This document shows, piece after piece, positions 41,297 through 64,000 of a stretch of 64,000 nucleotides of DNA; position 1 is the stretch's first letter; every line of letters begins with the position of its first letter. Source of the stretch: Paenibacillus sp. FSL W8-0426. GTDB taxonomy: Bacteria; Bacillota; Bacilli; Paenibacillales; Paenibacillaceae. The translations under genes and the position numbers were made by a program. The notes beneath the pieces are model-generated. The model ran no database searches, had not been told where the DNA came from, and saw only the letters and a list, made by a program, of their open reading frames with translations. The stretch spans positions 1,256,001 to 1,320,000 of the forward strand of contig NZ_CP150203.1 of NCBI RefSeq assembly GCF_037969725.1, written 5' to 3'.

Positions 41297-41400
41297 GCAA
41301 AGCGTCGTCTTTTTTCCGCCGATCCGCCTGCCGAATCCGCACGGAAGTCGGACGGAACACCATCCGCGCTAGGAACGGAACGGTGTAAGATTGTATTATC
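41297..41400 (+). promoter_or_regulatory. Putative late promoter of tail module 1
   Basis: The block starts with CAAAGCGTCGTCTTTTTTCC and ends with CACCATCCGCGCTAGGAACG (41358-41377), then GAACGGTGTAAGATTG and TATTAT (41394-41399), a good -10. Nearly the same arrangement precedes tail module 2 at 54206-54306. No normal -35 is present, which fits an activator-dependent promoter. Confidence 0.6.
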
Positions 41401-41449
41401 GGATCAATAGCAAACGGGCACCACCGAAAGCATATACGCTAAGTATGAG

Positions 41450-41473
41450 GACCAGCCGGCGGCTGGTCTTTTT
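41450..41473 (+). terminator. Leader hairpin in front of tail module 1
   Basis: GACCAGCC pairs with GGCTGGTC, followed by TTTTT. It lies about 45 bases downstream of the putative transcription start and before the first tail gene, so it would stop transcripts unless read through. Confidence 0.65.
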
Positions 41474-41609
41474 CATGCGGTGAGGTTGCCTAACTGTTGA
41501 TCCGGTACCAAACCAATGCAAGGAGTGAGCCTCCAATGCCCCTTGTTGCTGCGCAATGGGGATTAAGCCAAATCGGCAGCCGAAAGGGGAGAAAACGCAT
41601 GCAGACATG

Positions 41610-42542
41610 CAATACAGTATGAGCGATGAAGCATATACAGCAGGCAACCCGGGATCCATGGATACGGGAAACGTCGGCTCGTTGAGCGCACGAATCAGGC
41701 AAACCCTCAAGCGCAGACTCGCGGAGGAGATTCCTGCCTGGAACGGTCGTGTCGGGGATATCCCGGCCCCGGGAGAAGTGTTAAGCGGACCTTGCGCGGT
41801 GGTTGCTTTTGCCGAGGAGGTGCCGAAGTCGGCCTGGGCGGGTTATCGGCGTATCATCCACGTTTACCCTTATGCCCGTTCGGAAGACGGAGGCGCGGAA
41901 CAGGTGGAGGCTTGGTCAGCGCAGCTGATCGCAGCTTTACATCAGGCACGGCTTGAGGATGACGAGGGCGGCGCGTTCACCTGCATCTATGTCGGCTCGC
42001 GGGAATGCGACCGTATCGATCAGGCCTCCGGCATGATTACGCGCAGCTTGCGCTTCGCCGTTTACGTGCCGGAACCGGCCGATCACGCTCCGGCTATTCC
42101 GTCTGATCCGTGGATGCAGGCGATGCTGGATTGGACGAGCAAAGAGCTTGGCAAGGATTGGGCGGTGTATGCGGATGTATGGCCGCGAGGCTACGAGAAC
42201 CAAACCGTTTTGTGGCGGCTGGCTGGAAGCAGCACGTCTGCGTCAGGGACGAATGCACTGGAACTGCGCAAGCAATGGATCGGCCACGTCGTGGCATCGG
42301 GGGAAGAAGAGACTCGGCTTGCCGTTACCCGGCTGGTGGAGCAGCTTGGCGTACAGGCGCGCATTCCTTTGTCCATTGCGGGTGATAAGCGGTACGCGAC
42401 TGTGGATGAAGTCTCCGCAGACCTGCAGGCAGATGCCTACCTGAACGGCCAGATCCGGTTGACGCTCCAGCAGCGCATTCGCCGATCTGTGGCAGATGCA
42501 CCGCTGATGCAGGCAATTCATCACAAACGCGTGCTGGAATAG
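41610..42542 (+). CDS. Tail-terminator-like protein with two domains, module 1
   Basis: From ATG 41610 this protein has about 310 residues. The first half (IRQTLKRRLAEEIPAWNGRV; IHVYPYAR; SLRFAVYVPEP) has the pattern of small phage tail-terminator (DUF3168-like) proteins. The second half (KDWAVYADVWPRGYENQTVL; LYLNGQIRLTL-like end) resembles the DUF6838 tail-terminator type, to which the module 2 counterpart also belongs. It would cap the tube and sheath end. The start is uncertain: ATG 41556 lacks a ribosome binding site, and GGGGAG lies 15 bases from 41610. Confidence 0.6.
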   Translation, partial: QYSMSDEAYTAGNPGSMDTGNVGSLSARIRQTLKRRLAEEIPAWNGRVGDIPAPGEVLSGPCAVVAFAEEVPKSAWAGYRRIIHVYPYARSEDGGAEQVEAWSAQLIAALHQARLEDDEGGAFTCIYVGSRECDRIDQASGMITRSLRFAVYVPEPADHAPAIPSDPWMQAMLDWTSKELGKDWAVYADVWPRGYENQTVLWRLAGSSTSASGTNALELRKQWIGHVVASGEEETRLAVTRLVEQLGVQARIPLSIAGDKRYATVDEVSADLQADAYLNGQIRLTLQQRIRRSVADAPLMQAIHHKRVLE

Positions 42543-42627
42543 TCCCGGTGGCGAGGGACTTCAGCTTCATGAATGCGCAGCGGATCAGGCACGCAATAAA
42601 ACTTTTGGATAACGAGGTGAGATGCCC

Positions 42628-42828
42628 ATGGCAGGCACGGTCAAAAAAAATGCGCAGGCAGCCCCGAAGTATACGCGGGCGGAACTGATGAATCATGCGG
42701 AAGCCCTCTTTGCCGTCAAGGCTGAGGTGCTGCATGGTGCGCTGTTTGAAGCGGCGCAGCAAACATTTTCCATTCAAGAGGTTCAGGAAAGCATCGATCA
42801 ATTTATGAAAGCGAAGGTGAACGGATAA
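42628..42828 (+). CDS. Small pre-sheath tail protein, module 1
   Basis: This 66-residue protein (YTRAELMNHAEALFAVKAEV; FSIQEVQESIDQFMKAKV) precedes the sheath gene, whose ATG overlaps its stop codon as TAATG. The same layout and a similar C-terminal half are found in the module 2 gene at 54901, so it is a conserved part of the cassette. The role is unknown; an assembly helper for the sheath is possible. I prefer ATG 42628 over 42622 because GAGGTG is too close to the first. Confidence 0.7.
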   Translation: MAGTVKKNAQAAPKYTRAELMNHAEALFAVKAEVLHGALFEAAQQTFSIQEVQESIDQFMKAKVNG

Positions 42829-44291
42829 TGGCAGGCGGAACTTGGGAGCAAACGAATCGTCCGGTACTTCCGGGCTTGTATATGAATTTTCAGGCGGCAG
42901 CGGCATCGGCCATTCAGGCCGGATCGCGGGGGACCGTCGTTGTTCCGGTCAAGGCGAACTGGGGCCCGGCAGGCACGTTTGTGGAAGTGGGCAGCGAGGC
43001 GGCGATCGGACAGATTTTCGCGGCAAACGCCTTGGATAACGGGACGGCCTATGCGTCCTTGAAGCTGGCATTGTTGGGCGGGCCGAAGAAGTTATTGGCA
43101 TACCGCGTAACCGGGGAAACGGCGAAGGCGGCAAGCTTGGTGCTGAAGGATGGCAGCGATGCGGACGTGCTGCAGCTGGCTGCCAAATATCCGGGCGATC
43201 GCGCCAACGGTTTCTACGTGACGATTCAGCCGGGCGTCATCGACAACACGAAGCATGAGGTGCGTCTGTTTGAGGGCAACAAAATGCTGTATGCCTTGCT
43301 GACGGCAGACATTTCGGCCGCGGCGCTGGCCGAGCAGATCAATGCGGATGAGAGCAATCTGTGGATTACCGCACAGGCGGTAGGCAATGGAACGGGCACG
43401 GTAGCGACGGTGTCGGGAGCTGCTTTCAATGGCGGTGTGAGCGGCAACGAAAGTATTGCCAATGCGGATTACATTGCTTTGCAAGCGGCGCTGGAGGGAC
43501 AAACGTTCGATGTGCTCGCCCTGGATCATGCGGCGGATGCGTCTTTATTGGCGAGCTTTGCAGCGTGGGTGAAACGTGTGCGCAGCGAAGGCAAACCGGT
43601 GATGGCCGTGTTTGGCGGTTCTTCCGCGGACGATACTTCGGCGAGCGCGGCGCAAAAGGCGGCAGCGCGCTCCCTCACGCTGAACCATGAAGGCGTCATT
43701 AACGTGGGGACGGGCGTACGTTTGGGCGACGTTGATTACAGTTCGGCGCAAACCTCTGCGTACGTGGCGGGTCTGATCGCCGGGCAGCGTTTGAACGAAT
43801 CGACGACGTATGCCGCGACTCCGTTTGATGATGTGACGCGCAAATGGACGCGTGCCGAGCAGGAGCAGGCCGTGCAGAACGGGGTGTTCATTTTCATCCA
43901 TGACGGCCGTCAAGTGAAGGCGCTTCGCGGTGTGAACACGCTGGTTACGCCTGAGTCGGGTCAAAACAATGCCTGGAAAAAAATCCGTTCGATCCGCGTG
44001 ATGGATGCGATTAACACGGATTTGCAGCGTTCCGCGGAAGACAGCTACATCGGCAAAGTGAACAATACCGAGGAAGGACGCTTGGCGCTGATTTCGGCCA
44101 TGAAGTCCTACCTGGGGCTATTGGCGCAAAGCAATGTGATCGAAGCGTCCGGTTACGATGTCGTGCTCGACCCGACATATTACGGCGACTCCCCGGTATT
44201 CAAACCGGAGGCGGATCAGGTGTACCTCCAGTGGAATGTGAAACTGACCGATGTGATGGAGCAGTTGTTTGGCACATTTTATGTGCAGTAA
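42828..44291 (+). CDS. Contractile tail sheath protein, module 1 (XkdK-like)
   Basis: This 487-residue protein is the contracting outer layer of the tail. MAGGTWEQTNRPVLPGLYMN is the standard start of XkdK-type sheaths. The C-terminal part (AEQEQAVQNGVFIFIHDGRQ; RVMDAINTDLQR; YIGKVNNTEEGRLALISAMK) is the conserved sheath core. It shares the order and both end motifs with the 438-residue module 2 sheath; the extra length is mainly in the middle, surface domain. Confidence 0.93.
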   Translation: MAGGTWEQTNRPVLPGLYMNFQAAAASAIQAGSRGTVVVPVKANWGPAGTFVEVGSEAAIGQIFAANALDNGTAYASLKLALLGGPKKLLAYRVTGETAKAASLVLKDGSDADVLQLAAKYPGDRANGFYVTIQPGVIDNTKHEVRLFEGNKMLYALLTADISAAALAEQINADESNLWITAQAVGNGTGTVATVSGAAFNGGVSGNESIANADYIALQAALEGQTFDVLALDHAADASLLASFAAWVKRVRSEGKPVMAVFGGSSADDTSASAAQKAAARSLTLNHEGVINVGTGVRLGDVDYSSAQTSAYVAGLIAGQRLNESTTYAATPFDDVTRKWTRAEQEQAVQNGVFIFIHDGRQVKALRGVNTLVTPESGQNNAWKKIRSIRVMDAINTDLQRSAEDSYIGKVNNTEEGRLALISAMKSYLGLLAQSNVIEASGYDVVLDPTYYGDSPVFKPEADQVYLQWNVKLTDVMEQLFGTFYVQ

Positions 44292-44370
44292 TTGGCGTTG
44301 GGATTAGGGCGTGGCGAACCTTATACCACGAGACTGATCGCCGAGGGAACTAGATGGAGCAGTCGAATTT

Positions 44371-44555
44371 TTAACGAACCTGAAGCACGTTATTGGCTCC
44401 AAATCGATGTGGTTGGCACTTTAACGAACCTCAGACGTCTTATTTGCCCGAAAACGGGCGTTGTTGCTTGTTTCCGGCCCGAATAGCGTGGCTGAGGTTC
44501 GTTACATTGTGGCATGCGTGATTTATCTCCAAATAAGGTGTCTACGGTTCGTTAG
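44371..44555. repeat. Cluster of CTGAGGTTCGTTAG repeats, locus 2, inside tail module 1
   Basis: Two inverted units (TTAACGAACCTGAAGCACG at about 44380 and TTAACGAACCTCAGACGTC at 44421) are followed by two plus units (AATAGCGTGGCTGAGGTTCG at 44482 and AAGGTGTCTACGGTTCGTTA at 44535). The inner pair can fold into a long hairpin. It belongs to the family at 19834. The whole gap 44292-44619 has no gene; module 2 has only one base between sheath and tube genes. Confidence 0.7.
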
Positions 44556-44619
44556 AACTACACAAATGAATCAACGAAGAGGTGTGGAACCTCAACATAT
44601 AACCAAGGAGGAATTTTAC

Positions 44620-45027
44620 ATGTTGGATGCATCAAGAGTTATTCTCGGTACCCACGGTCAGCTGCATATCGATGGCGTGTGGCAGACCAATATCAACAAA
44701 CTGGAGGCCAGCGTGGAGATCGAGAAGCGCGAGCTGAACCTGGTCGGCAACGACTGGAAGGTGCACAAAAACGGCGCCAAAAAAGGCACCGGCACCATGA
44801 CCGGTTACAAAGTGACATCGGACATGATCGTGCGCGGTTTTACCAAATTCGAAATTATTTCCTCGCTGAACGATCCCGAGTCCTATGGTCATGAGCGGGT
44901 GCTGCTGAAAGGCTGCATGGTCGACAAAATCCAGTTGGCCAACTGGACGGCCGGCGAGGAAGTGCCGGAGGAGACCGGTTTTACCTTTGAAGGATTCGAT
45001 CTGCTTGATCCGATTGTAGCCAGATAA
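44620..45027 (+). CDS. Tail tube protein, module 1 (XkdM-like)
   Basis: This 135-residue protein forms the rigid inner tube. ILGTHGQLHIDGVWQTNINK, NDWKVHKNGAKKGTGTMTGY and the C-terminal ETGFTFEGFDLLDP are typical of XkdM tubes. AAGGAGG lies eight bases before the ATG at 44620. A terminator-like hairpin follows the gene, which would leave tube and sheath more abundant than the downstream baseplate proteins. Confidence 0.92.
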   Translation: MLDASRVILGTHGQLHIDGVWQTNINKLEASVEIEKRELNLVGNDWKVHKNGAKKGTGTMTGYKVTSDMIVRGFTKFEIISSLNDPESYGHERVLLKGCMVDKIQLANWTAGEEVPEETGFTFEGFDLLDPIVAR

Positions 45028-45044
45028 TTCGAGCGGAATGTGAA

Positions 45045-45072
45045 TGGGCTGGGACGTTTCCCGGCCCTTTCA
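45045..45072 (+). terminator. Intra-operon terminator-like hairpin after tube gene, module 1
   Basis: GGGCTGGG pairs with CCCGGCCC and is followed by TTTCATT; a moderate terminator that should allow partial read-through. Module 2 has a hairpin at the same place. Confidence 0.55.
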
Positions 45073-45165
45073 TTGACCATGTGTAAGAGATGAGAAAGTG
45101 TGCTGGTGAATGGATCAAGTTGAAGCATTGAATTTATACACAGTCAAAAAAAGGAGCTAACAACC

Positions 45166-45600
45166 ATGAGCGTAAACGAACATTTGTCGGAAGAACAGAT
45201 TTTGGACCAGCTGTTTGAAGCAGCCGAACGGCTGCCGGAGGAAAACGTGCGCATTCAGCGCCTGGATCTGCTGCTGACCCTGCGCGGCCTGACGTCCTCG
45301 AAGGTCGATCAGATCCGCGAACGCTGCACGATCCGCAAAACGGTCAAAGGCCGTACCGAGGAAAAAGTAGACACGGAGACATTCAACGCGCTGCTGATCT
45401 CGGAAGCGACGGTCAAGCTGCAGGTACGCAGCCTGGAATTGTCCGGCTGGGGAGACAGCCGCATCACTGGACGCATGAAGCTGTCCGGCGGGGAGCAGGC
45501 GGTTCGCCGCATGCTGCTGGCAGGCGAATTGGATGCGGTCGGCGACAAGGTACTGGAGCTGTCCGGCTTCGGCGTGGAGATTGAAGACCTAAAAAACTGA
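45166..45600 (+). CDS. Tail assembly chaperone, module 1, short form (XkdN-like)
   Basis: This 144-residue protein is the short product of a tail-chaperone gene (SEEQILDQLFEAAERLPEEN; KLSGGEQAVRRMLLAGELDA). Such chaperones bind the tape measure protein before tube polymerisation. The gene ends in the slippery sequence A AAA AAC followed directly by TGA, so a fraction of ribosomes should shift by -1 into the extension ending at 45758. Confidence 0.88.
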   Translation: MSVNEHLSEEQILDQLFEAAERLPEENVRIQRLDLLLTLRGLTSSKVDQIRERCTIRKTVKGRTEEKVDTETFNALLISEATVKLQVRSLELSGWGDSRITGRMKLSGGEQAVRRMLLAGELDAVGDKVLELSGFGVEIEDLKN

Positions 45601-45758
45601 TTCACTCCGGCGGAATGACGACGTATCTGTATCATATGTGGGTGCGCCATCATTTGCGTCCCGGAGAGTTCTGGGCACTGCCAAGAGGAGAGCGTTCATT
45701 GCTGCTCGCTTTTAGTGAAGAGGAGATGAACGCTTTGGCCGCGACGGCCAATCGATAG
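45591..45758 (+). CDS. Frameshift extension of the tail chaperone, module 1
   Basis: A -1 shift at A AAA AAC (45591-45597) gives KKLIHSGGMTTYLYHMWVRH and on to NALAATANR, stopping at TAG 45756-45758. The long product would have 197 residues, matching the G/GT arrangement of lambda and the two-gene XkdN arrangement of PBSX-like tails. The extension has no start codon or ribosome binding site of its own, which supports frameshifting. Confidence 0.82.
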   Translation, partial: KKLIHSGGMTTYLYHMWVRHHLRPGEFWALPRGERSLLLAFSEEEMNALAATANR

Positions 45759-45788
45759 AGGAACAACGATATGTCAGGAGGTGAACGA

Positions 45789-47585
45789 ATGGCAGAAACG
45801 ATTATTGGTTTGTCCCAATCGAATGCGCAGATGCGAACGACGATTCGTTATCTCGACCAAATTCAGCGTTCCACGGATCGGTTGGGCCGAACGCGATATC
45901 AGAGTTTGATCAAGACCAACAACGAGTTGCGGACAACTGGGCGACGTTTGGAGAGCATTTATAGCACGGCGGTACGATTGAGCAGGTTACGGATTATGCC
46001 GAAGATCGGTTTAATCGATGAACTAAGTCCGGCATTAGATCGTGCGCTTGCGAAGCTGAACAGTGTGCGCGGACAGATGGTGAAGGCATCCGGAACGGTG
46101 TTGGTTGACGTAAAGCAAAAGGTTGAAGTGGAAATGGGCAAAATGGGTAACAGCATAATTAATCATACAACTTTTAATAATGCTATGAGTACAACTACCA
46201 GTGCTCCAAGTAGTTCAGGTAGTTCAAATCCAGGATGGATGGACTGGACTACAAATGCCAATAACGCCGTCCTTAGTCCTTTGAACAATGCTACTGACTT
46301 AATAATAAAGTGGGGGGGCGGTTTGAAAAAATTATTTTCAAAAAATGATAAAAATGGATCTAACTGCAACTGTTGTTGTGGTGGCGGCTCTTTAGTCGGT
46401 TCAATCAAGAACCGTTCAAAAGGGGGAAGGGGAGGAAAGCCAACAGGAGGGAATAGTTCGGGTCGTAATGCCAGCAACAAGGGTGGCCGATCAGAACAAG
46501 CTCGACAACAAAATAATAAAGTGACTGTTAGGACAGATGCTGGTGAAAAGAAAACGATCATTACAAAGACTACTGATAAAATGATGGATGATGCAGTTAG
46601 AGATTTTCGACGACAAAATGATAAATCGCTAAAAATAGGCAAAGGAATATCTGGACTTACTTCCGGCATTATGTCAGGCTCACCGCTGGATATGATGTCT
46701 GGGAACGGCATGTTCTCCAAAATAAGCAATGGTCTCGCTAAAGGTGCAGGAAAAATGCTAGGTCCGCTTACCATGGTCGCCAGCGTGGCCAATATTGCCA
46801 CCGCTCCCCCCGAAGAGCGTGGACGTGCCGTCGGCTCCATGATCGGTGGTACGGCAGGAACAGCGATCGGCAGCGCGATCGGAAGTGTATTGCTGCCAGG
46901 CATTGGAACCTGGGTTGGCGGTGCGGTTGGGGGCTGGGCTGGCAGTGAAGTCGGCGGCTGGATCGGAGATAAGGCGAAAGACATCGGAAACTTCATGTCC
47001 AGTGCAACCGAAGGCGTGGGAAATGCTTTGTCCGGCGCGGCTGATTTTGTGGCCGAAAAGACGAAGAACATCTTCGGCGGAATCACCGAGTTCTTTGGCG
47101 GCTCTAAGAAAGAAGAAGCTCCTGCGGTGACGCCCCCCGCTTCCGTACCTTCACAGCCAATGCCAGCTCCGCCATATATACCAGAAGCTCTTTCGATAAC
47201 CGGTCCGAAAGCCTACTTGTCCGGCATGGGCGGCGGCCCAACGGCGGCGGCACTCGCTGGACCGAACCTGATGCAAATGCAGGCCATGGGCATGGGTACA
47301 GGTGCAGGTGCAGGTGCGCAAGCACAGGCCGCGGGCAACGGCACACCATCCACGATGACCGTGCAAATTTCCGAGGAACAGATGAGCAGTCTGGCTGGTT
47401 ACCTCACCGATTTCAAAACTGAGGTCACCAACCAAGTCTCTGTCAACGTGCCTGCGGGAGCGGTGCAAGTGACGGTGCGCGAAAACGCGATCGATTACGA
47501 TGCCCTCGCCCTTCAGATCGGGGGACGCCTCTCGAATGAATTGCGCCGTGCCATGGAAAATCGCCGATCAACGGTGATGGCTTAA
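45789..47585 (+). CDS. Tape measure protein, module 1
   Basis: This 598-residue protein should set tail length. The N terminus is helical (QMRTTIRYLDQIQRSTDRLG). A Gly/Asn/Lys-rich middle contains the cysteine cluster NCNCCCGGGS. A Gly-zipper stretch (SMIGGTAGTAIGSAIGSVLL) follows, then a Pro/Gly/Ala-rich region, and the usual C-terminal end (NVPAGAVQVTVRENAIDYDA). It is much shorter than XkdO of PBSX. Bases about 46140-46720 are clearly more AT-rich than the flanks. AGGAGG lies seven bases before ATG 45789. Confidence 0.8.
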   Translation: MAETIIGLSQSNAQMRTTIRYLDQIQRSTDRLGRTRYQSLIKTNNELRTTGRRLESIYSTAVRLSRLRIMPKIGLIDELSPALDRALAKLNSVRGQMVKASGTVLVDVKQKVEVEMGKMGNSIINHTTFNNAMSTTTSAPSSSGSSNPGWMDWTTNANNAVLSPLNNATDLIIKWGGGLKKLFSKNDKNGSNCNCCCGGGSLVGSIKNRSKGGRGGKPTGGNSSGRNASNKGGRSEQARQQNNKVTVRTDAGEKKTIITKTTDKMMDDAVRDFRRQNDKSLKIGKGISGLTSGIMSGSPLDMMSGNGMFSKISNGLAKGAGKMLGPLTMVASVANIATAPPEERGRAVGSMIGGTAGTAIGSAIGSVLLPGIGTWVGGAVGGWAGSEVGGWIGDKAKDIGNFMSSATEGVGNALSGAADFVAEKTKNIFGGITEFFGGSKKEEAPAVTPPASVPSQPMPAPPYIPEALSITGPKAYLSGMGGGPTAAALAGPNLMQMQAMGMGTGAGAGAQAQAAGNGTPSTMTVQISEEQMSSLAGYLTDFKTEVTNQVSVNVPAGAVQVTVRENAIDYDALALQIGGRLSNELRRAMENRRSTVMA

Positions 47586-47603
47586 AGTGGAAGGAGGTCA
47601 ATC

Positions 47604-48269
47604 ATGGCATTCATTGAAGATACACCCGAAGGTTTGGACATGCTCTTTACCTTGAAGGACGGATCGACCACTTTCGAGTTTCCGGTCAATCCGGAGGAGG
47701 TAAGCATATCCCGTTCCAAAGGGTACGAAACGATCAACATGCTGGAGCATGGCGAGTTTGATTTTGCGATTGGGGAGAAGGTGAAGGAGATCACCTTCTC
47801 TTCTTTTTTTCCGAAAGAACATAACCGATCCTTCTGCCAAACGACGACGGTTCCCGATCCGCGTGTGGCGATGAACGTACTGAATACGTTCCTGGTGTCC
47901 AAAAAACCGCTGCGCTTCATTATCTCGAACACAGGCGTGAACGTACCGGTATACTTGGTCACCCTGAACACCACCTTCCGGGGAGGCGAGCCGGGGGACA
48001 TTTATTTCGACCTGACCCTCCGCACTTGGCGGGATTCGAAAGTGGAGAAGCTGGGTGCAGGAAGGGCGAGCAAATCATCGTCCTCCCGGACCGACCTGAA
48101 AAAAAACAGCAAAACGTATACCGTCAAATCCGGTGACTCGTTATCGAAAATCGCCAAGCTGGAGCTGGGAAGCAGTTCAAAGTGGAACGAGATCTACCAG
48201 CTCAACAAAAAAACGATCGGCAACGATCCTAACCGAATCAAGCCTGGGCAAAAGCTGGTGCTGCCATGA
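47604..48269 (+). CDS. LysM tail protein, module 1 (XkdP-like)
   Basis: This 221-residue protein has an N-terminal tail domain (FEFPVNPEEVSISRSKGYET) and a C-terminal LysM (YTVKSGDSLSKIAKLELG ... PGQKLVLP). XkdP-like proteins sit between tube and hub and may position the tube. The stop overlaps the next gene's ATG by four bases. Confidence 0.9.
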   Translation: MAFIEDTPEGLDMLFTLKDGSTTFEFPVNPEEVSISRSKGYETINMLEHGEFDFAIGEKVKEITFSSFFPKEHNRSFCQTTTVPDPRVAMNVLNTFLVSKKPLRFIISNTGVNVPVYLVTLNTTFRGGEPGDIYFDLTLRTWRDSKVEKLGAGRASKSSSSRTDLKKNSKTYTVKSGDSLSKIAKLELGSSSKWNEIYQLNKKTIGNDPNRIKPGQKLVLP

Positions 48270-49252
48270 CGTACAAAGTCATTGTCGAAGACAAATACGA
48301 TGTCACCAAGCTGGTCGAGACGATTACGCTTAAGGATTCGCTCGACCAAATTGCTTACCAAGGCAATGTCCGGTTGGCAGTGTCAGCAACTTCCGGTTTG
48401 CCTGCGATATCGCCGGGCATGGCGGTGCGGATCAGCGGGGTTCCTTTTGGCGGCACAGGTATGGCGACGTTGCTGCATCCCGCAGTCATTTGGGAGGCGG
48501 AAAGCTCGAACGGCAGCGTCAAACGGTTATCCCTGACGATCTACGACCGGATGATCTATCTGGAAAAATCGGAGGACGAGTTTCTGCTGCCCAAAGACCA
48601 AACGGCCACGCAGCGGCTCAAAACGTATGCAAAAGAGTGGAAAATCCCATGCGCCACGCTGCCGAATACGGCGACAAAGCTTAGCAAAGCGGTGTACCGA
48701 TCGCAGACGATCCTGTCGATGATCTATGCCGATCTGAAAGAGACGGCCAAATCGGGCGGGGACATGTACCATCCCCGGATGACGCCTGCCGGGCTGCAGC
48801 TGTTCAAGGTGGGCAGCAATGCCAAAGTGCATGAACTGGACCGGCTGATCGACCTGTCGCAAATGCGTACATTGGAGGGCGCGGTAACCAAAGCAAAAGT
48901 CATGGCAGCCTCCGAGTCCAGCAGCGGCAAGGAAGTTCCCTCCAAGGTGCTGGCGATCGAGGAACAGGGTATTGCCGAACTCGGTACGCTGCAAAAGCTG
49001 TTCCAGGACGATCAAGTCAAAACGGCAGCGGCCGCCAAAAAGCTGGCCAAGAGCAAGCTGACCGGCATCCAGGAGACGTTTACCGTGACGGCGCCGGACA
49101 TCAATACGATTCGAGCCGGAGACGCGGTGCGCCTGAAAGGGATAAAGCTGATCGTTATGTCGGTCAGCCGGGATTTGTCGGCAGGTCCGGGCACGATGAC
49201 GCTGGAACTCGGCACGGCCGAACTGGTGAAAAGGAGGTATTACCTTGAATAA
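48266..49252 (+). CDS. Baseplate hub protein, module 1 (XkdQ-like)
   Basis: This 328-residue protein resembles XkdQ and gp27/GpD-type hubs. It starts with a beta domain (TLKDSLDQIAYQGNVRLAVS), has the SLTIYDRMIYLEKSEDEF segment typical of XkdQ, and ends in a second beta domain (INTIRAGDAVRLKGIKLIVM). It should form the trimeric hub at the tube tip. It overlaps the genes on both sides. Confidence 0.88.
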   Translation: MTYKVIVEDKYDVTKLVETITLKDSLDQIAYQGNVRLAVSATSGLPAISPGMAVRISGVPFGGTGMATLLHPAVIWEAESSNGSVKRLSLTIYDRMIYLEKSEDEFLLPKDQTATQRLKTYAKEWKIPCATLPNTATKLSKAVYRSQTILSMIYADLKETAKSGGDMYHPRMTPAGLQLFKVGSNAKVHELDRLIDLSQMRTLEGAVTKAKVMAASESSSGKEVPSKVLAIEEQGIAELGTLQKLFQDDQVKTAAAAKKLAKSKLTGIQETFTVTAPDINTIRAGDAVRLKGIKLIVMSVSRDLSAGPGTMTLELGTAELVKRRYYLE

Positions 49253-50109: not shown

Positions 50110-50112
50110 CGG

Positions 50113-54306: not shown

Positions 54307-54365
54307 GGCATAACAAGGAAGTTAGCCGTGAACATATCAGCACAATCAAACATCCAAACATCAGC

Positions 54366-54391: not shown

Positions 54392-54424
54392 GTTGTCCTA
54401 TGAATATCGCAAAGGAGGTGAATC

Positions 54425-54853: not shown

Positions 54854-54900
54854 CGAGGAATGAGGGATGCACAATGAAAACGATGGGAGGTGTCCTGGCC

Positions 54901-56992: not shown

Positions 56993-57108
56993 GATAACCA
57001 CCCTTTGAGTCGAAAAGAAAATCACTTCAACTTCATGCTGTAAAGCAGCCTGGAAAAGTGAATGTATAACCCAACGTACCCGCCATGATAGACGGGTTAT
57101 TCGTCGTG

Positions 57109-57155
57109 CCCAGCATGAACAGCCATTTCCGCTGACGATGCTGGGTTTCTTTTTA
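57109..57155 (+). terminator. Intra-operon terminator after tube gene, module 2
   Basis: CCCAGCAT pairs with ATGCTGGG across a 21-base loop and is followed by TTTCTTTTT. It lies between tube and chaperone genes, the same place as the hairpin in module 1. Confidence 0.7.
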
Positions 57156-57244
57156 GAGGAGAGCAGCGGGTCTGCTCTCTTTACAACCACAGTCCAACAG
57201 GTGCACGAATTGCAGCGGGACTATTTTCTGAGGAGGAACCATTC

Positions 57245-57667
57245 ATGAGTGGATTGAGTATGTTTTTTGCGCAAAATGCAGCTTCGGAGGCAACGGTCGA
57301 TTTCGTCGTGTCCCCGCGTTTCAAAAATGAGGACGGCGAGCCGGTCGCTTGGAAACTGCGCAGCATGACCGAGGACGAAAACCAGGAGTGCCGCAAAGCG
57401 GCCACTCGCAAAGTGAAAGGCAAAAACGGCGTTTACACGCCTGATATCGACGCCAATGATTACATGGCCCGCTTGATGACGGCAAGCATCGTCTACCCGG
57501 ATCTCAAAAACGCGGAGCTTCAGCGTTCCTACGGCGTCATGGGCGCGGAGTCGCTGCTTCGCAAAATGCTGCTTCCGGGCGAGTTTGCCACCTTGGGGGA
57601 GCAGGTGCAGAAGCTGAACGGCTTCAACCAGGACATGAACGATATGGTGGATGAAGTAAAAAACTGA
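57245..57667 (+). CDS. Tail assembly chaperone, module 2, short form (XkdN-like)
   Basis: This 140-residue protein (DFVVSPRFKNEDGEPVAWKL; SIVYPDLKNAELQRSYGVMG; GFNQDMNDMVDEVKN) belongs to the XkdN-like chaperones. It ends in GTA AAA AAC TGA, the same A AAA AAC slippery site and adjacent stop as in module 1. GGAGG precedes the ATG. Confidence 0.9.
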   Translation: MSGLSMFFAQNAASEATVDFVVSPRFKNEDGEPVAWKLRSMTEDENQECRKAATRKVKGKNGVYTPDIDANDYMARLMTASIVYPDLKNAELQRSYGVMGAESLLRKMLLPGEFATLGEQVQKLNGFNQDMNDMVDEVKN

Positions 57668-57867: not shown

Positions 57868-59943
57868 ATGTCTGATACAAGAATAGACGTGATCAACCCT
57901 CCGTCAATAAACAATTTGATCAATAATTTGAATCTGGTACAAGTAAAAACGACTGAAATCCTAAATAATTTCAACCAGATCAATCGGATTAATCTCAACC
58001 AATTCAACCAGACCAATATATCCAATCATTTTAATCAAGTGAACCAACAGTTGAATGTAACGATTAACCTGATGGACAAACTGGACGACGCCGCTGATGA
58101 TGCGGGGAAATCTCTAAGTGACAACCTCAGCCAATTATCCAAATGGCTTCAAATGGTGAAGTCCGTCGGGAGCGTTGTACTAAAAGCTGCTGCTGAGGAA
58201 GAAGATTGGAAGTATCGTTACATGATTGCAGCGGAAGATCCGGATCTTGGAAAGGGTGCTTATCATAAGGTTCGGGATCAAGCATTTAAAGGCGGACAAA
58301 ATGTGAACGATTCGCTTCAGTCTTCACTAGGTTTCCTACCCCTGGTACAAAATATGGGCCAGATTGAACAACTGAATGAGTTGTCCAAACGTCTAAGCGT
58401 GCTGTCTCCGGATGGGAAAAGCCTGACAGATGCCTCATCTGCATTAGTCAGTGCTATGAATGGAGACAATTCGAATTTGGCATCTGATTTTAATGTTTCC
58501 GAGGGTGCACTTGACAATGCTGGTTTGGAAGGATTCATCGAGACCAGGGATTTGGATGGTTTTATACAGAAAATGCAGACGGTGCTTGAGATGCAGGGGT
58601 ATACCAAGGAGGCATTCGATACGATGCTCGATTCGCCGCTTCAGAAATGGACGGGGATCGTGAATCAATTTAATGCTGTATTAGCCGAATTGGGAACGAA
58701 AGCATTAGAAGTTTTATCACCTGTATTGGATCAATTAAGTGAAGCATTTAGCTCGGGGCAATTCAGTAGTTTTACGGAGTGGATTGGTACAGCCTTTGCC
58801 ATGATTGCACAGGTCATCGCTTTCATCTTGCAGGGGGTTATCGCTTTTGCCACCGTCGTTCAGGAAAACTGGGATTTGATTGCGCCGATATTAACGGCTA
58901 TTGCCCTTGTATTGCTTGCAAACATCATCATTCAGTTGAGTGTTGTCATCGTGCAGGTACTGGCGCTTGCCGGTGCTTGGTTACTATTAAACTGGCCAAT
59001 CTTATTGGTTATTGCGGCAATTGCTGCAGTGATAGCGATACTGAATTTATGCGGTGTTTCAGGCACGCAGATCGTCGGATCAATCATTTCTGTATTTCTG
59101 ATGTTGTTCGAAAATATTCGAGTGAAAATTGCTATGTTGTGGAATCTATTCGCTTCTTTGGCTGAGTTCCTCATCAATTTATTTATTGATCCGGTGTATG
59201 CCATCAAGAAACTATTCTATGATCTTGGAATGTTCGTGCTTCAAACCTTGTACAACGTAATGGTAGGAATCGAAAGTTTCCTGGGCAAGGCTGTGGGTGC
59301 TATTGGCAAAGTTGCTTCATTCATTAATGACACGTTCGGCACCAATCTTGACGTCGTTTCTGAAGCCGATATTAATATCGGAAGCAAAAAGGTAAAGGAA
59401 TGGATGAATACATTAGAATCCATGGCTCCGGAAAGCGATAAAGACGTTGTATCTTTGTTCAGGATGGATAGTGAATTCGATCCGAATGCTGGAGATAAAG
59501 GGCAGCAGCTGGCTGAGGATTTCTTTTCCAAATTTTCTGTCGACGATACCGTTTCAGATGGTGGTTTTCCTGGTAATTTTGGCGATGGTTTCAAACCAGA
59601 GACCCCTACAATGCCAGCCGTACCATTAGCACCAACAGCCCCATCCGTGCCGACCATGCAAATGCCCAACAACACAAGCAACATCAACAAAATCAACAAT
59701 GTCGGCAAGGTCGATCAGATCGGGGACGTGTCGGGCACGGTGGACGTGACGAGCGAGGACCTGAAGCTGATGCGCGAGTTGGCTGAAATGCAGGCTATCC
59801 AACGTTTCGTCAGCCTTACGCCGACCGTGCAAGTGACGACGGGGGATATCAACAGCGGCCACGACATCGACAGCATCATTACGAAAATCACCGATGGCCT
59901 GAACAGCCAAATCGTCTCCAGCGCACAGGGGGTATATGGATAA
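57868..59943 (+). CDS. Tape measure protein, module 2
   Basis: This 691-residue protein has an unusual Asn/Gln-rich N terminus with degenerate repeats (NNFNQINRINLNQFNQTNIS). A helical region follows (DDAADDAGKSLSDNLSQLSK), then several hydrophobic helices (about 300-420: AMIAQVIAFILQGVIAFATV; LLNWPILLVIAAIAAVIAIL), and a C-terminal part typical of tape measures. The hydrophobic helices may insert into the target membrane on firing. The gene is AT-rich compared with its neighbours. AAGGAGG precedes the ATG. Confidence 0.85.
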   Translation: MSDTRIDVINPPSINNLINNLNLVQVKTTEILNNFNQINRINLNQFNQTNISNHFNQVNQQLNVTINLMDKLDDAADDAGKSLSDNLSQLSKWLQMVKSVGSVVLKAAAEEEDWKYRYMIAAEDPDLGKGAYHKVRDQAFKGGQNVNDSLQSSLGFLPLVQNMGQIEQLNELSKRLSVLSPDGKSLTDASSALVSAMNGDNSNLASDFNVSEGALDNAGLEGFIETRDLDGFIQKMQTVLEMQGYTKEAFDTMLDSPLQKWTGIVNQFNAVLAELGTKALEVLSPVLDQLSEAFSSGQFSSFTEWIGTAFAMIAQVIAFILQGVIAFATVVQENWDLIAPILTAIALVLLANIIIQLSVVIVQVLALAGAWLLLNWPILLVIAAIAAVIAILNLCGVSGTQIVGSIISVFLMLFENIRVKIAMLWNLFASLAEFLINLFIDPVYAIKKLFYDLGMFVLQTLYNVMVGIESFLGKAVGAIGKVASFINDTFGTNLDVVSEADINIGSKKVKEWMNTLESMAPESDKDVVSLFRMDSEFDPNAGDKGQQLAEDFFSKFSVDDTVSDGGFPGNFGDGFKPETPTMPAVPLAPTAPSVPTMQMPNNTSNINKINNVGKVDQIGDVSGTVDVTSEDLKLMRELAEMQAIQRFVSLTPTVQVTTGDINSGHDIDSIITKITDGLNSQIVSSAQGVYG

Positions 59944-60645
59944 ATGGACTATTACATTCAGCTCAGCTACAACAACCGCGCGGAATATATGTACTTTCCG
60001 GTCAACCCGGAGACGATCGAGTTTGCGGATGCGCTGGATGGCAGCACGCATGACGTGACCGGAATCGGGGAGATCAATGTCATCAAATCGCCTCGTTTAA
60101 GGGAAGTGAGTTTTAGCGGTATTTTTCCGGCCGATTACAGTCCTTACCATATTTATTACGATGCCAGACATTCTTCTATTAAAGAGCAATACTACGACGA
60201 TCCCTATGAATACGTGAAAAAAATCATTCGCTGGATGCAGACGGGCAAACGAGCCAGATTGTTCTACTCAAGCGCCCGCTACACGATCAACATGCCCGTG
60301 TCCATCGAGAGCTTCGACTGGAAGGAAACGGCCGGGCAGGTCGGCGACATTCAATACGATATCAAGCTGAAGGAATACAAGTTTTATTTGCCCAAAAAGG
60401 TGGAGCTCGTCAAGAAGAATGACGCGAAACAGGCATCTGCCGCCAAAACGAAGGATGAAACGACGCGCTCGGACGAAAAGGTGCAGCCGAAAACGGTGAC
60501 GCTCAAAGCCGGTGATTCGTTATGGTCCATAGCCAAAGCCCATCTGGGAGATGGTGCGCGCTGGAAAGAACTGCAGAAGCTGAACGGCATCCAAGATGCT
60601 CAGATCAAACGCCTCCCGATTGGGCTTGTACTCAAGCTGCCTTGA
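59944..60645 (+). CDS. LysM tail protein, module 2 (XkdP-like)
   Basis: This 233-residue protein has an N-terminal tail domain (EYMYFPVNPETIEFADALDG; YSPYHIYYDARHSSIKEQYY), a charged linker and a C-terminal LysM (VTLKAGDSLWSIAKAHLGDG ... LPIGLVLKLP). It starts directly after the tape measure stop. It corresponds to the module 1 gene at 47604. Confidence 0.9.
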   Translation: MDYYIQLSYNNRAEYMYFPVNPETIEFADALDGSTHDVTGIGEINVIKSPRLREVSFSGIFPADYSPYHIYYDARHSSIKEQYYDDPYEYVKKIIRWMQTGKRARLFYSSARYTINMPVSIESFDWKETAGQVGDIQYDIKLKEYKFYLPKKVELVKKNDAKQASAAKTKDETTRSDEKVQPKTVTLKAGDSLWSIAKAHLGDGARWKELQKLNGIQDAQIKRLPIGLVLKLP

Positions 60646-60661
60646 AAGGAGGGAAACGAAA

Positions 60662-61633
60662 ATGAAACACCAGCTGCTGCTGGATAACAAGCAGGGACAG
60701 GTATGGGACATTACCGGGATCGTGACGGACATTACGCACAAAACGTCGCGCATCGGCAAGCCCGCGTCGCTGGAGTTTACGCTGATCCGGAGAAAGCATA
60801 ACCCTGGCGCATCATTTACTTATGAAAACGGTTATGTTGTCAGATATGTATCCGACGATATCGGCGTTTTCTATGGGTACATTTTCTCGGTAGACAGCGG
60901 CAAGGATGAGACGGTCTCCATTAAAGCATACGATCAGACCCGGTATTTGACGGCGAACCAAACGTATCAGTTCCTGAACGCAACCGCAGCGGACGTGATC
61001 CGCCGGATCGCGACGGATTTTCAGTTGAAAATGGGGGACCTTGGAAAACCGGAGTACGTCATTCCGCGCATGCTTTTCGACAATAAAAAGCTGATCGACA
61101 TGATCTGCGAAGCGCTGGACCGTACTCTCATTTACAGCGGCAAAAACTATATTTTCTACGACGATTTCGGCCAATTAGTGCTCCGTGAACCGGAGCAGAT
61201 GCCCTACGGCTTCGTGATCGGGGATGGGAGCCTGCTCACCGATTATTCGCATTCCCGCTCCATCGACGACGAAACGTACAATAAAATCAAGCTTTATCGC
61301 GACAACAAGGAGACAGGTAAACGGGAGACTTATGTCGCGCAGAATTCAAGCAGCGTCCGGCAATGGGGGCTGCTTTTTCTATATCAGAAGCTGGATGACG
61401 ACCTGAACGAAGGGCAGATCAACGAGATGCTGAACACGTTAATGACCTTGCGCAATCGGGAAACCCAAAAGCTGAAGGTGGATGCGCTAGGCGACTTTCG
61501 GGTGAGGGCAGGGACGTACGTCAATATTCAGATCGAAGATTTGCAGATTAATCAATATTTTCTGGTGGATGAATGCACTCATAAGGTGGAGGGCGGGATG
61601 CATACCATGTCGCTGGATTTGAAGGTGGTGTAA
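60662..61633 (+). CDS. Baseplate hub protein, module 2 (XkdQ-like)
   Basis: This 323-residue XkdQ-type hub contains DKTRYLTANQTY-like DQTRYLTANQTYQFLNATAA, YIFYDDFGQLVLREPEQMPY and the C-terminal VRAGTYVNIQIEDLQINQYF. ATG 60662 has GGAGGG eight bases upstream; the frame runs further upstream only inside the LysM gene. Confidence 0.9.
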   Translation: MKHQLLLDNKQGQVWDITGIVTDITHKTSRIGKPASLEFTLIRRKHNPGASFTYENGYVVRYVSDDIGVFYGYIFSVDSGKDETVSIKAYDQTRYLTANQTYQFLNATAADVIRRIATDFQLKMGDLGKPEYVIPRMLFDNKKLIDMICEALDRTLIYSGKNYIFYDDFGQLVLREPEQMPYGFVIGDGSLLTDYSHSRSIDDETYNKIKLYRDNKETGKRETYVAQNSSSVRQWGLLFLYQKLDDDLNEGQINEMLNTLMTLRNRETQKLKVDALGDFRVRAGTYVNIQIEDLQINQYFLVDECTHKVEGGMHTMSLDLKVV

Positions 61634-61638
61634 ACGCA

Positions 61639-61893
61639 ATGCTGGATGTCATCAAAAAGGCGGCGGTGGCCGCCGTGGATGCGCGTGTTCCCGTACAGGT
61701 CATGTACGGAACCGTGACGAAAACCGGACCGCTGGAAATCACGGTGGAGCAGCGGCTCGTTTTGGAGGAACCGTTTCTCGTGCTGCCCGAATCGATCGTG
61801 AATAAAGCATGGCAGACGGGGGATCAGGCAATTCTGCTGCGCGTACAGGGCGGAGACAGCTTTGTGGTGCTGGATCGGCTGGTGAAAGCATGA
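61639..61893 (+). CDS. DUF2577 tail protein, module 2 (XkdR-like)
   Basis: This 84-residue protein (DARVPVQVMYGTVTKTGPLE; NKAWQTGDQAILLRVQGGDS) is the short form of XkdR/DUF2577; the module 1 copy has 136 residues. Its stop overlaps the next ATG. Confidence 0.85.
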   Translation: MLDVIKKAAVAAVDARVPVQVMYGTVTKTGPLEITVEQRLVLEEPFLVLPESIVNKAWQTGDQAILLRVQGGDSFVVLDRLVKA

Positions 61894-62306
61894 TTCCGCA
61901 AGGGGCACAGATAACGGAGTCGAAGGACGATGTGGCGCGGACTGCTGCGCCCAGCAAAACCTATGAGCTGGATCTGGCAGGAGGCCGAATCGGGAGATTG
62001 GGCACGGATGGCCGGGAGGCCGTCAAGCAAGCCATCCATAAGGCTTTATCTACCCGCCGTTATGAATACCTGATCTATTCATCCGATTACGGCATGGAAT
62101 GGTCACCCGAGGGACTTGCCGATCGTTCCATGGTGGAATCGGAGCTGGAACGATGGATTCGGGAGGCGCTGATGCCGGATGACCGGATCACAGAGGTAGG
62201 GGATTTTCGATTCCGCCATGAGGGGGATCAGGTGACGGTTTCTTTTACCGCCCAAACGGACTTCGGCAGCTTGACGGAGGAACTGGAGGTGAACGTGAAT
62301 GTATGA
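61890..62306 (+). CDS. DUF2634 baseplate wedge protein, module 2 (XkdS-like)
   Basis: This 138-residue gp25-like/DUF2634 protein contains KTYELDLAGGRIGRLGTDGR and RRYEYLIYSSDYGMEWSPEG. ATG 61890 overlaps the previous stop as ATGA; the frame is open upstream only inside the neighbour. Confidence 0.87.
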   Translation: MIPQGAQITESKDDVARTAAPSKTYELDLAGGRIGRLGTDGREAVKQAIHKALSTRRYEYLIYSSDYGMEWSPEGLADRSMVESELERWIREALMPDDRITEVGDFRFRHEGDQVTVSFTAQTDFGSLTEELEVNVNV

Positions 62307-63357
62307 GCAACAAACGTATGAAACGATTTTGAACCGCATGCTGGACCGCGTACCGGAGGGCATCGATAAAAGGGAGGGCAGCATCATTTATGATGCGTTG
62401 GCCCCTGCCGCCGTAGAAATGGCGCAGATGTATATCGAGCTGGACGTGAACGCGAATTTGAAATTTGCGGATACGGCTACCGGTGAATACCTGGATCGGG
62501 CAGTGGCTTGGTCAGGCATCTCACGTAAACGTGCGACACCGGCACGGTGGGTTGCTTCTTTCAAGAACAGCCAGAATCAGCCGGTGGATGTGGAACTGGA
62601 ATCCCGGTTTTCCATGGGAACGCGCGTGTATGTGGCCGTGGAGCGGCTAACGGCGGGGCAAGTTGTGCTGGAGTGCGAAACGGCCGGCGCGATGGGCAAT
62701 GAATACAAAGGAACGCTGCTTCCGATCGATTATATTCCGGATCTGGCCGCTGCGGAAATGGTGCTTCTGCTGGTGCCCGGTGAAGACGAAGAGACGGATC
62801 AGTCGCTATATGACCGTTATCAGGACAAGGTATCTCGCCCGGTAACGAGTGCGAACCGCTATCAATATGAGCTGTGGGCGCGAGAAATTGCGGGTGTGGG
62901 TAAAGCCCGGGCATTTCCGCTCTGGGATGGTCCCGGAACCGTGAAGGTTGCATTGCTGGGCAATGACATGCGCCGTCCCGCCGAATCGGTGATCGAAGAA
63001 GTGCAGACTTATATCGATCCAACCCAAGATGGCATGGGGGAAGGTGCAGCGCCGATCGGCCCTGTCGTTATGGTGGTTGGCGCAGAAGAGATTCCGATCG
63101 ATGTCGAGGTCAAAGTGACGCTTGCTGCCGGATCTACGCTGGAGGGGATCAAGACCTTGATTCAGGAAGGCGTAACGGCGTATTTGAAAGGGTTGGCCTT
63201 CGATGATCCGCTGGTGCGCTGGACCCGAATCGCCAACGTCATCATGGACATTCCGCCCGTGATCGACTACAGTGATTTGCTTATTAACGGAGGGACCAGC
63301 AATGTGGACATTGCGCAGGATGCGGTGGCCGTGCTCGGCACGGTGAAGGTGTCATGA
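62299..63357 (+). CDS. Baseplate J-like protein, module 2 (XkdT-like)
   Basis: This 352-residue protein contains QTYETILNRMLDRVPEGIDK, REGSIIYDALAPAAVEMAQM, TYIDPTQDGMGEGAAPIGPV and WTRIANVIMDIPPVIDYSDL. It overlaps the DUF2634 gene by eight bases and the next gene by four, as expected for a tightly coupled operon. Confidence 0.93.
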   Translation: MYEQQTYETILNRMLDRVPEGIDKREGSIIYDALAPAAVEMAQMYIELDVNANLKFADTATGEYLDRAVAWSGISRKRATPARWVASFKNSQNQPVDVELESRFSMGTRVYVAVERLTAGQVVLECETAGAMGNEYKGTLLPIDYIPDLAAAEMVLLLVPGEDEETDQSLYDRYQDKVSRPVTSANRYQYELWAREIAGVGKARAFPLWDGPGTVKVALLGNDMRRPAESVIEEVQTYIDPTQDGMGEGAAPIGPVVMVVGAEEIPIDVEVKVTLAAGSTLEGIKTLIQEGVTAYLKGLAFDDPLVRWTRIANVIMDIPPVIDYSDLLINGGTSNVDIAQDAVAVLGTVKVS

Positions 63358-63899
63358 GCCGCAAGCCTGACTTGATGACATACCTGCCCCCGCTGTATGA
63401 GCAGGTGGTGGAGATGAAGCTGCTTGCCCGGACCGAGGGCGAGGAATTGGGGCAGCTGTTGGATGGCGTGGACAGCGTGCTGGATCAGTTTTATCCCGAG
63501 TCGGCGACGTGGGCGCTTGCGAGGTATGAGCAGGACTTGCATATCCCGGTCAATCCGTTGAAGCCCGCGGATCAGCGCCGGTCGGTCATTATTTCGAAGA
63601 TGCGCGGCAGCGGCAAGGTGTCCGGATCGATGCTGCGCAATGTGGCGCAGGCGTATGAGAGCGGCGGCATCGAGGTGTCCGTTTTGCCAGGGGAGTATGC
63701 GATCCTGATTCGCTTCGTGGATACATATGGCTTGCCGCCCAATCTGGATGATCTGAAGGCGGCCATTGAAGAGATCAAACCGGCACACATGAGCGTGGAA
63801 TTCCATCTGCGCTATTTGACGATTGCCGAAGTCGAAAGCATGACGCTGAGCGAGATCGAGCAGACTCGGCAGGATAAATTCATGGGAGGTGGCGCTTGA
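63354..63899 (+). CDS. DUF2313 baseplate protein, module 2 (XkdU-like)
   Basis: This 181-residue protein contains DLMTYLPPLYEQVVEMKLLA, SATWALARYEQDLHIPVNPL, RRSVIISKMRGSGKVSG and EEIKPAHMSVEFHLRYLTIA. It is shorter at both ends than the module 1 copy. Its ATG overlaps the previous stop as ATGA. Confidence 0.9.
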   Translation: MSRKPDLMTYLPPLYEQVVEMKLLARTEGEELGQLLDGVDSVLDQFYPESATWALARYEQDLHIPVNPLKPADQRRSVIISKMRGSGKVSGSMLRNVAQAYESGGIEVSVLPGEYAILIRFVDTYGLPPNLDDLKAAIEEIKPAHMSVEFHLRYLTIAEVESMTLSEIEQTRQDKFMGGGA

Positions 63900-63900
63900 A

Positions 63901-64000
63901 ATGAGTGAGCCGAAAACACCGAATCTTGCGTTGAATCAGATCGACCGTTCTTCTCCGGCAACGACGTATTTCGATCTGGACCGATATCTGGATCAGAACT
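63901..64000 (+). CDS. Tail fibre protein N-terminus, module 2 (partial)
   Basis: ATG 63901 with GGAGGTGG upstream opens a frame that reads MSEPKTPNLALNQIDRSSPA and then TTYFDLDRYLDQN up to the window edge. This start is typical of XkdV-type fibre proteins of Bacillus and Paenibacillus tails and differs from the module 1 fibre N-terminus. The rest lies outside. Confidence 0.75.
   Translation, partial: MSEPKTPNLALNQIDRSSPATTYFDLDRYLDQN

Follow-up and report, generated by a model that had tools for sequence, protein, structure and literature searches.

Two contractile tailocins at one chromosomal site have been described in Pseudomonas protegens CHA0, where, according to the accessible part of the report, the site between mutS and cinA/recA is occupied by two R-tailocins that differ in length, probably arose separately and share one set of lysis genes (PMC7815802). 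Here we describe a comparable locus in Paenibacillus sp. FSL W8-0426, whose 6.9 Mb genome is a single contig. The analysed stretch (positions 1,256,001-1,320,000 of contig NZ_CP150203.1, 64,000 nucleotides, hereafter the window) carries two contractile-tail modules, termed M1 and M2, and a conserved noncoding leader, termed R1. In our preferred reading, to which we assign a probability of about 0.76, the locus encodes two R-type tailocins that share their lysis genes and are under leader-RNA control.

As far as the accessible text goes, CHA0 and the window locus are alike in having two (in the window, predicted) contractile tailocins at a fixed chromosomal site, tape measures of different length and one lysis set, and in that one tailocin is conserved and the other variable. 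CHA0 differs in being a Gram-negative host whose clusters carry a gene for the regulator PrtR, and a leader RNA is unmentioned in that part of the source (PMC7815802). With this precedent, the double tailocin is therefore a known kind of system, encountered here in a new host group. We presume that the CHA0 gene sets are not of the XkdK type.

Among Gram-positive systems, the diffocin of Clostridioides difficile (PDB 8v3t; sheath CD1363) resembles the window locus as an R-type tailocin with an XkdK-like sheath. This sheath of 354 amino acids (aa) matches the M1 and M2 sheaths over part of their length only, and we take diffocin to be a single module. The closest solved relative of both the M1 sheath and the fold of the first M1 gene is phage phiCD508 (PDB 9gb5, 31eu). 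PBSX-type defective phages such as PBP180 share the xkd tail gene order and a holin with a lysin, but PBP180 has annotated terminase, portal and capsid genes, which the window locus lacks. Unlike the headless window locus, phiCD508 is presumably a complete phage. A phage tail-like bacteriocin is also known from a Gram-positive relative, Brevibacillus laterosporus; PBSX is named often in the accessible part of that paper, and the beginning of its abstract describes no tandem pair (PMC9406221). Literature searches, with most subscription papers outside their reach, returned no report of tandem tailocins in Paenibacillus and none of a tailocin leader RNA, and the main text of a 2024 noncoding-RNA survey (PMC11109978) does not contain Paenibacillus, phage tail, DUF4127, prophage or xkd. 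The R1 leader is the new part of the finding; the double-tailocin architecture is already documented in Pseudomonas.

Two headless tail modules side by side

M1 (41556-53357) and M2 (54425-66993, overrunning the window end) follow one another on the plus strand and are two complete, diverged, headless XkdK-type contractile-tail modules. Both contain genes for a contractile sheath, tube, tape measure, baseplate, terminator and fibre, and the locus adds a holin and a GH25 lysozyme, the structural and lysis gene content of an R-type tailocin. A sequence-only reading of this DNA had reported the same gene order twice in direct succession with clearly diverged paralogues, and the annotation of both modules agrees: in gene-by-gene blastp, 8 of 14 pairs align (E<=1e-5) at 27-42% identity and in matching order, and no blastp alignment was obtained for the terminator, small-protein, tape-measure, Q, fibre and W pairs. 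M1 and M2 are of different phage ancestry. The profile E-values and the gene order conserved in relatives exclude chance as an explanation of this arrangement.

The absence of capsid, portal, terminase and integrase genes, likewise claimed from the sequence, is confirmed by a Pfam scan of the locus proteins, by inspection and by phmmer. The rightward extension that the same reading had proposed revealed a lysis gene (GH25) past the window, and among the open reading frames (ORFs) of the next 37 kb no head gene was recognised by eye. Twenty head proteins of five related solo loci, in which an M2-like module stands alone, gave no phmmer match in 22 tandem and 26 M1-only loci of the genus. By contrast, all eight solo M2-like loci fetched carry head-protein homologues, and three of them were checked against Pfam for terminase and portal. 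A PBSX-like defective phage with a DNA-packaging head was considered and rejected, as the locus has no head genes.

Host genes lie on both sides of the locus, with a DUF4127 gene to the left of M1 (39365-41215, plus strand; Pfam PF13552, E 2.4e-66) and, past GH25, a peptide-binding protein, ATP-binding cassette permeases and HtpG, all named by eye. The DUF4127 gene adjoins 36 of 49 annotated tailocin loci (22 tandem, 13 of 26 M1-only and that of G043, a genome with M2 only); its AlphaFold model is uninformative (pLDDT 41), and a literature search on DUF4127 gave no paper with the term. Elsewhere in the same genome (L074, ~4.735 Mb) lies another contractile-tail cluster, whose sheath is short (346 aa) and which has head-like genes by eye and no R1 match; it is probably a prophage.

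Distribution and ancestry of the modules

Module classes were assigned from sheath-profile matches across 75 genomes of the genus, and loci were annotated for 22 of the 28 tandem genomes, 26 of the 37 with M1 but without tandem M2, and G043. M1 occurs in 65 of the 75 genomes (the sheath being split in one, G071) and M2 stands in tandem with it in 28, at a sheath-to-sheath distance of 10.5-13.2 kb. The earlier view that such a pair is unusual in this type of host did not survive this comparison, with the pair in 28 of the 75 genomes and M1 without tandem M2 in 37 more. The 22 annotated tandem loci share flanking host genes and the order DUF4127, M1, M2, holin, GH25, peptide transporter, with exceptions for the holin in G000, G010 and G041; the 26 annotated M1-only loci divide evenly into 13 with the DUF4127 flank and 13 with other flanks. 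Beyond the genus, sheaths 56-72% identical to that of M1 occur elsewhere in the family, and two genomes of another genus (G276 and G265) likewise carry M1 followed by M2. G043 (L073) lacks M1 and has kept M2 beside DUF4127, a natural M2-only strain. Five M1 loci of the genus that lack DUF4127 (L045, L047, L052, L054, L083) have a second gp48/XkdU-like gene between the first fibre and the holin, perhaps an alternative baseplate-fibre cassette.

In a baseplate J tree of 77 rows, the 45 M1 rows fall on one side of a branch and another branch groups the 21 tandem-type M2 rows, including G043. Of six solo M2-like rows, five lie elsewhere and one (G045) is sister of the M2 clade. A recent prophage insertion was tried as the origin of M2 and rejected: solo M2-like tails lie on other branches, all eight solo loci have head homologues and none has R1. 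Phage records hold no baseplate J more than 60% identical to that of M1 or M2; a record from Paenibacillus sp. JJ-223 has a baseplate J 99% identical to that of M1. Distances of M1 and M2 are correlated (Mantel r 0.95; 0.85 without G000 and G010, the two genomes of the window species), and those of M1, M2 and neighbouring genes give r 0.89-0.95 (0.72-0.86 when the same two are left out), to which local co-inheritance also contributes because the 'host' set consists of DUF4127 and the adjacent transporter genes. M1 is the core module of the genus and M2 is optional, a division that the sequence-only reading had missed, as it had the R1 leader; we read M2 as an old second module that has often been lost, with exchange between relatives possible.

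The two modules could in principle supply alternative parts of one hybrid tail. This would fit their co-diversification and the single set of lysis genes that they share, one holin and one GH25. The holin common to both modules, which the sequence-only reading had pointed out, is the only one of the locus and lies between M1 and M2 (53622-54107, plus strand; PF05105, E 2e-40), a placement found in both G000 and G010; in 20 of the 22 annotated tandem loci M2 is followed by holin and GH25 alike (G041, among these, has an extra partial holin after M1). Depending on the relative, the homologous holin is located behind M1 or behind M2. A hybrid particle is nevertheless very improbable, as sheath, tube, tape measure and baseplate genes are present in both modules and either module is found without the other. 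M1 lacks a tandem M2 in 37 genomes; M2 stands at this locus without M1 in G043, and M1 is likewise missing beside M2 in seven genomes from other genera.

Maintenance of both modules and fibre exchange

All frames of M1 and M2 are intact in the window genome; the degraded frames that the sequence-only reading would have taken as refutation were looked for in both modules and not found. The ratio of nonsynonymous to synonymous substitutions (dN/dS) was calculated from pairs with dS 0.05-1 among the annotated tandem loci other than G054 and G005 (20 of 22); G053 and G071, each with a single broken gene, were kept. Median values for structural genes are 0.02-0.19 in M1 and 0.005-0.20 in M2, and for fibres 0.26 in M1 and 0.31 in M2, the latter from three usable pairs. 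Comparison of the paralogues in related genomes, as earlier proposed, finds both modules conserved under low dN/dS. The frameshifted chaperones noted from the sequence are also conserved: the chaperone ORFs of both modules end in A-AAA-AAC-TGA and have a conserved extension in the -1 frame, of 46-54 aa in M1 and 58 aa in tandem M2, the exceptions being the M1 copies of G054 and G005, where frames are broken.

Fibre tips change on this conserved machinery. The M1 fibres of G000 and G010 show 92-100% identity in the first 200 alignment columns, 55% in the following 40 and 0-18% past column 240, and the M2 fibre is mosaic past about 100 columns; the other structural genes have dN 0-0.015 except the M1 tape measure and the M1 tube, whose annotated starts differ. 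We compared fibre tips in 50 pairs from 19 tandem loci with baseplate J at least 95% identical in both modules. The distal fibre is below 40% identity in 47 of these pairs for M1 and 39 for M2, or in 30 and 22 of 31 once the 19 pairs with G048 or G039, whose M1 fibre ORFs are short, are removed; seven of the 31 include G003, whose M2 fibre ORF is short, and without them M2 falls below 40% in 15 of 24. G003 and G051 share only the M1 tip, and G067 and G050 only the M2 tip. Variable receptor-binding fibres on conserved machinery are therefore found in M1 and M2 alike, the same pattern as reported, in the accessible parts of two papers, for tailocins whose killing range shifts by fibre exchange (PMC13195805, PMC6331570). 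The centre of the M1 tape measure is also replaced between G000 (604 aa) and its conspecific G010 (L027; 533 aa), and particle length may therefore vary within the species.

Judging from purifying selection, the -1 frameshift sites and independent swaps of fibre tips, both modules look functional. Two decaying prophage remnants lying side by side, from which no particle is made, would account for the missing heads, the patchy presence of M2 (28/75) and the single genes broken in some relatives, such as the M1 sheath of G071. We consider such remnants improbable given the intact window frames, the low dN/dS of both modules, the conserved frameshift sites, the same flanks in all 22 annotated tandem loci and the occurrence of M1 sheaths at 56-72% identity in other genera.

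A conserved leader in front of the tail modules

R1 was first seen in a 17-genome alignment of the gap between DUF4127 and M1, as a conserved noncoding block with an intrinsic terminator at its end. The M1 leader, ~170 nt long, lies at 41299-41517 on the plus strand (core model match 41349-41517; 151 bits, E 9.6e-28). A diverged copy precedes M2 (54206-54437, plus strand; model match 54256-54437, 42 bits, E 6e-6; second search E 2.6e-5), and a weak R1-like element lies upstream of the DUF4127 gene (39000-39101, plus strand; 29 bits, E 0.0025 over the loci searched; second search E 0.011), where copies outside the window species score 68-157 bits. A profile search of the fetched loci found R1 before M1 in all 48 M1 loci (22 tandem and 26 others), before DUF4127 in many loci and before M2 in G000 and G010.

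A covariance model built from 18 copies was then applied to the genus (E<=0.1) and the family (E<=0.01). R1 is present in 66 of the 75 genus genomes, the weakest best match being 2e-4, and the nine genomes without it are exactly the nine that have neither M1 nor a G043-type M2 locus. The 72 classified matches in the fetched genus loci divide into 49 before M1, 19 before DUF4127 and 4 before M2, the last comprising two in G043 and one each in G000 and G010. All 72 share the strand of the downstream gene, and R1 lies at a median of 48 nt upstream of the annotated first gene of M1; for 11 of the 19 DUF4127 copies the distance to that gene is 25-32 nt. Reading through the rows, we saw no match away from the locus in the genus genomes, the G032 copy being on another contig, and the eight solo M2-like loci of prophage type gave no match. 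The two copies of G043 lie 1.5 kb apart before M2. The presence of its own R1 copy in relatives suggests that the DUF4127 gene is a member of the same regulon.

Across the family, 52 of 240 genomes match R1, 25 of them outside the genus; by position or annotation of the neighbours, R1 precedes an M1-type sheath in 12 of these 25, an M2-type module in 7 and a holin-amidase pair in 3 (Pfam-checked in G200, homologous in G130 and G148). Eighteen loci fetched from other genera contain no homologue of the 20 head proteins tried. Some matches fit none of these classes: that of G193 is at a contig end, that of G272 (E 9e-4) has no tail gene in the 13 kb examined, and that of G146 (E 0.008), with no tail gene nearby, is probably due to chance. 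In an order-wide sample 41 of 198 genomes (43 genera) match, and in a class-wide sample 12 of 200 (94 genera); all matching genomes of both samples belong to Paenibacillaceae. One blastn search found no R1 in phage records, and Rfam gives no match in the window, the best hits near M1 staying at 16.8 bits where the cut-off is 50 and at 13.1 bits where it is 40. In three loci of another genus (L135, L136, L137) R1 is followed by holin and amidase without tail genes. The R1-holin-amidase loci adjoin a homologue of a gene that lies ~13 kb to the right of the window's tailocin locus, and in these three the tail genes seem to have been lost and the leader and lysis pair retained.

Structure of R1 and its possible mode of action

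In the M1 leader an 11-bp outer stem (41400-41410 with 41494-41504) encloses an intrinsic terminator (41450-41473). A 5' hairpin, a conserved linker (UAAGAUUGUAUUAUC in the window genome) and a long outer stem with inner hairpins recur in many of the single-sequence folds, and the outer stem is recovered with different letters in several genera; it is missing from the folds of the window DUF4127 copy and of the short matches of G200, G130, G148 and G193. With 90 rows aligned by fitting to the model, pairing holds in 89% of cells. Both partners have changed in 188 cells; shuffling gives 51 on average and slid pairings give 14-47. A smaller MAFFT alignment has 16 double-change cells against 5.4, above all 500 shuffles.

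These observations bear on whether R1 acts as RNA or as a DNA site, that is, a promoter/operator or a site of recombination with inverted repeats that only look like stems. A -10-like TATTAT in the linker, the conservation of the 5' part in sequence and the diverged M2 copy, which retains the linker and 5' part and not the outer stem, would all suit a DNA site. The long outer stem built from different letters in several genera, the many compensatory changes, the strand agreement in 72 of 72 matches and the short distances to downstream genes argue for RNA, and we regard a DNA site as unlikely, if the most serious of the alternatives. That R1 represents a new class of cis-regulatory RNA, a dedicated switch of domesticated phage-tail weapons in Paenibacillaceae that would pass one signal through leader read-through to M1-type tails, M2-type tails, a bare lysis pair and DUF4127, is a proposal for which we judge the odds to be even.

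Several observations weigh against the reading of two leader-controlled tailocins. In the window genome the M2 copy of R1 has diverged (42 bits) and folds by itself without the outer stem, and this degeneracy reduced our confidence, though the copy keeps the 5' hairpin, linker and terminator; in other tandem genomes R1 matches lie before M1 and DUF4127 and not before M2. The 90-row alignment was fitted to the model's own structure, and in the MAFFT alignment neither the number of A1 pairs that show double changes (5 against 3.7, with 106 of 500 shuffles as high) nor that of further pair types (15 against 17.5) was above shuffles. Copies of R1 before M2-type tails of other genera have inner hairpins without a U-tract, which weakens attenuation; termination control is therefore a best guess. 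Presence of M2 switches nine times on the M1 tree (32 loci), close to the mean of 9.9 for shuffled labels. Simple SOS control was examined and rejected, no LexA-like box with up to two mismatches being found between DUF4127 and M1; LexA-like sites in the whole window (42 against 36.6 expected) are at chance level. A scan for sigma-70-like promoters was uninformative, because it found 4 against 8.8 in shuffles.

Gene content of M1

The M1 genes all lie on the plus strand. The first (41556-42542, exact start uncertain; phrog_2146) encodes a tail terminator or collar protein, which the sequence-only reading had called terminator-like. It has no Pfam match; its AlphaFold model (pLDDT 77) gives the phiCD508 neck as best Foldseek match (E 1.4e-19) and weaker matches to the collars of diffocin (E 1.4e-3) and pyocin R2 (E about 1e-3). 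A small protein of unknown function (42622-42828; phrog_1939), whose position is kept in relatives, precedes the sheath (42828-44291; Pfam PF04984, E 7.4e-27), for which the closest solved sequence is the gp55 sheath of phiCD508 (31eu, 9gb1-9gb8; E 1.3e-60). The tube (44461-45027) matches PF09393 (E 1.1e-47) from residue 55 on and has 135 aa in many relatives; its true start is probably near 44620. Then follow an XkdN-like tail assembly chaperone (45166-45600; PF08890, E 3.5e-23) with the -1 frameshift site at its stop codon and a tape measure of 604 aa (45771-47585; PHROG tape-measure matches). The stretch 47604-50109 holds LysM/XkdP (start 47604; PF01476), XkdQ-like (48266; PF24032), XkdR-like (49245; phrog_2403) and sheath initiator/XkdS (49642; PF10934) genes, and 50113-52008 holds baseplate J/XkdT (50113; PF04865, E 4.9e-68) and gp48/XkdU (51286; PF10076, E 2e-34). 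The module closes with a 353-aa tail fibre (start 51999; PF03406) and a small protein (start 53073), together 51999-53357.

Gene content of M2 and lysis genes

M2, also on the plus strand, begins with a tail terminator (54425-54853; PF20765, E 6.7e-6), a small protein (54874-55215; phrog_966) and a sheath (55216-56532; PF04984, E 5.1e-36) with Desulfitobacterium DSY3957 as closest solved relative (3hxl, E 1.1e-170). Tube (start 56534; PF09393) and XkdN-like chaperone (57245; PF08890) with its -1 frameshift site occupy 56534-57667 and are followed by a tape measure of 691 aa (57868-59943; phrog_1068, E 2.2e-91); tape measures of 604 and 691 aa are consistent with two predicted particles of different length. 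XkdP with LysM (start 59944; PF01476), XkdQ (60596; PF24032, E 7e-116), XkdR (61639; PF10844) and the sheath initiator (61809; PF10934) extend over 59944-62306, baseplate J/XkdT (62299; PF04865) and gp48/XkdU (63354; PF10076) over 62299-63899. Running beyond the window end are an 857-aa fibre (63889-66462; phrog_13022, E 3.7e-208), a W-like protein (66475-66993) and the GH25 lysozyme (67304-68257; Pfam PF01183, E 3.6e-54). The M2 fibre is 32% identical to that of Paenibacillus phage Pd_22F over 89% of its length; the match of the M1 fibre spans 30% only.

A Paenibacillus extracellular contractile injection system (eCIS) fibre is reported, in the accessible part of the source, to bind human cells (PMC12923769), which raises the question of whether the modules could be an injection machine delivering effectors, possibly to eukaryotes. 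The locus points elsewhere: its Pfam-scanned proteins include no AAA+ ATPase, a marker of eCIS, and no effector-like family, holin and lysin are present, and the M2 fibre resembles a phage fibre. An injection machine is highly improbable.

Implications for Paenibacillus and its family

Under the reading of two leader-controlled tailocins, some signal would allow transcription through R1 into the tail operons by controlled read-through, possibly by attenuation or antitermination, with full control of M1 and, in the window species, control of M2 via the diverged copy. A single cell would produce tails of both types, the length of each being set by the tape protein of its module, and both would be released by cell lysis through one holin and one GH25 lysozyme. 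Strain-specific fibres may aim the tails at related bacteria, whose envelope would be breached and which would be killed by sheath contraction. M1 would then be the core weapon of the genus and M2 an optional second weapon, often lost or exchanged.

Paenibacillus includes soil and plant-associated species, and the double-tailocin architecture is common in this Gram-positive genus. What switches on the tailocins of Gram-positive bacteria is, to our knowledge, for the most part an open question. R1 marks tailocin loci across the family and is thereby a candidate regulator that can be tested directly, as well as a sequence handle for finding tailocin-type weapons.

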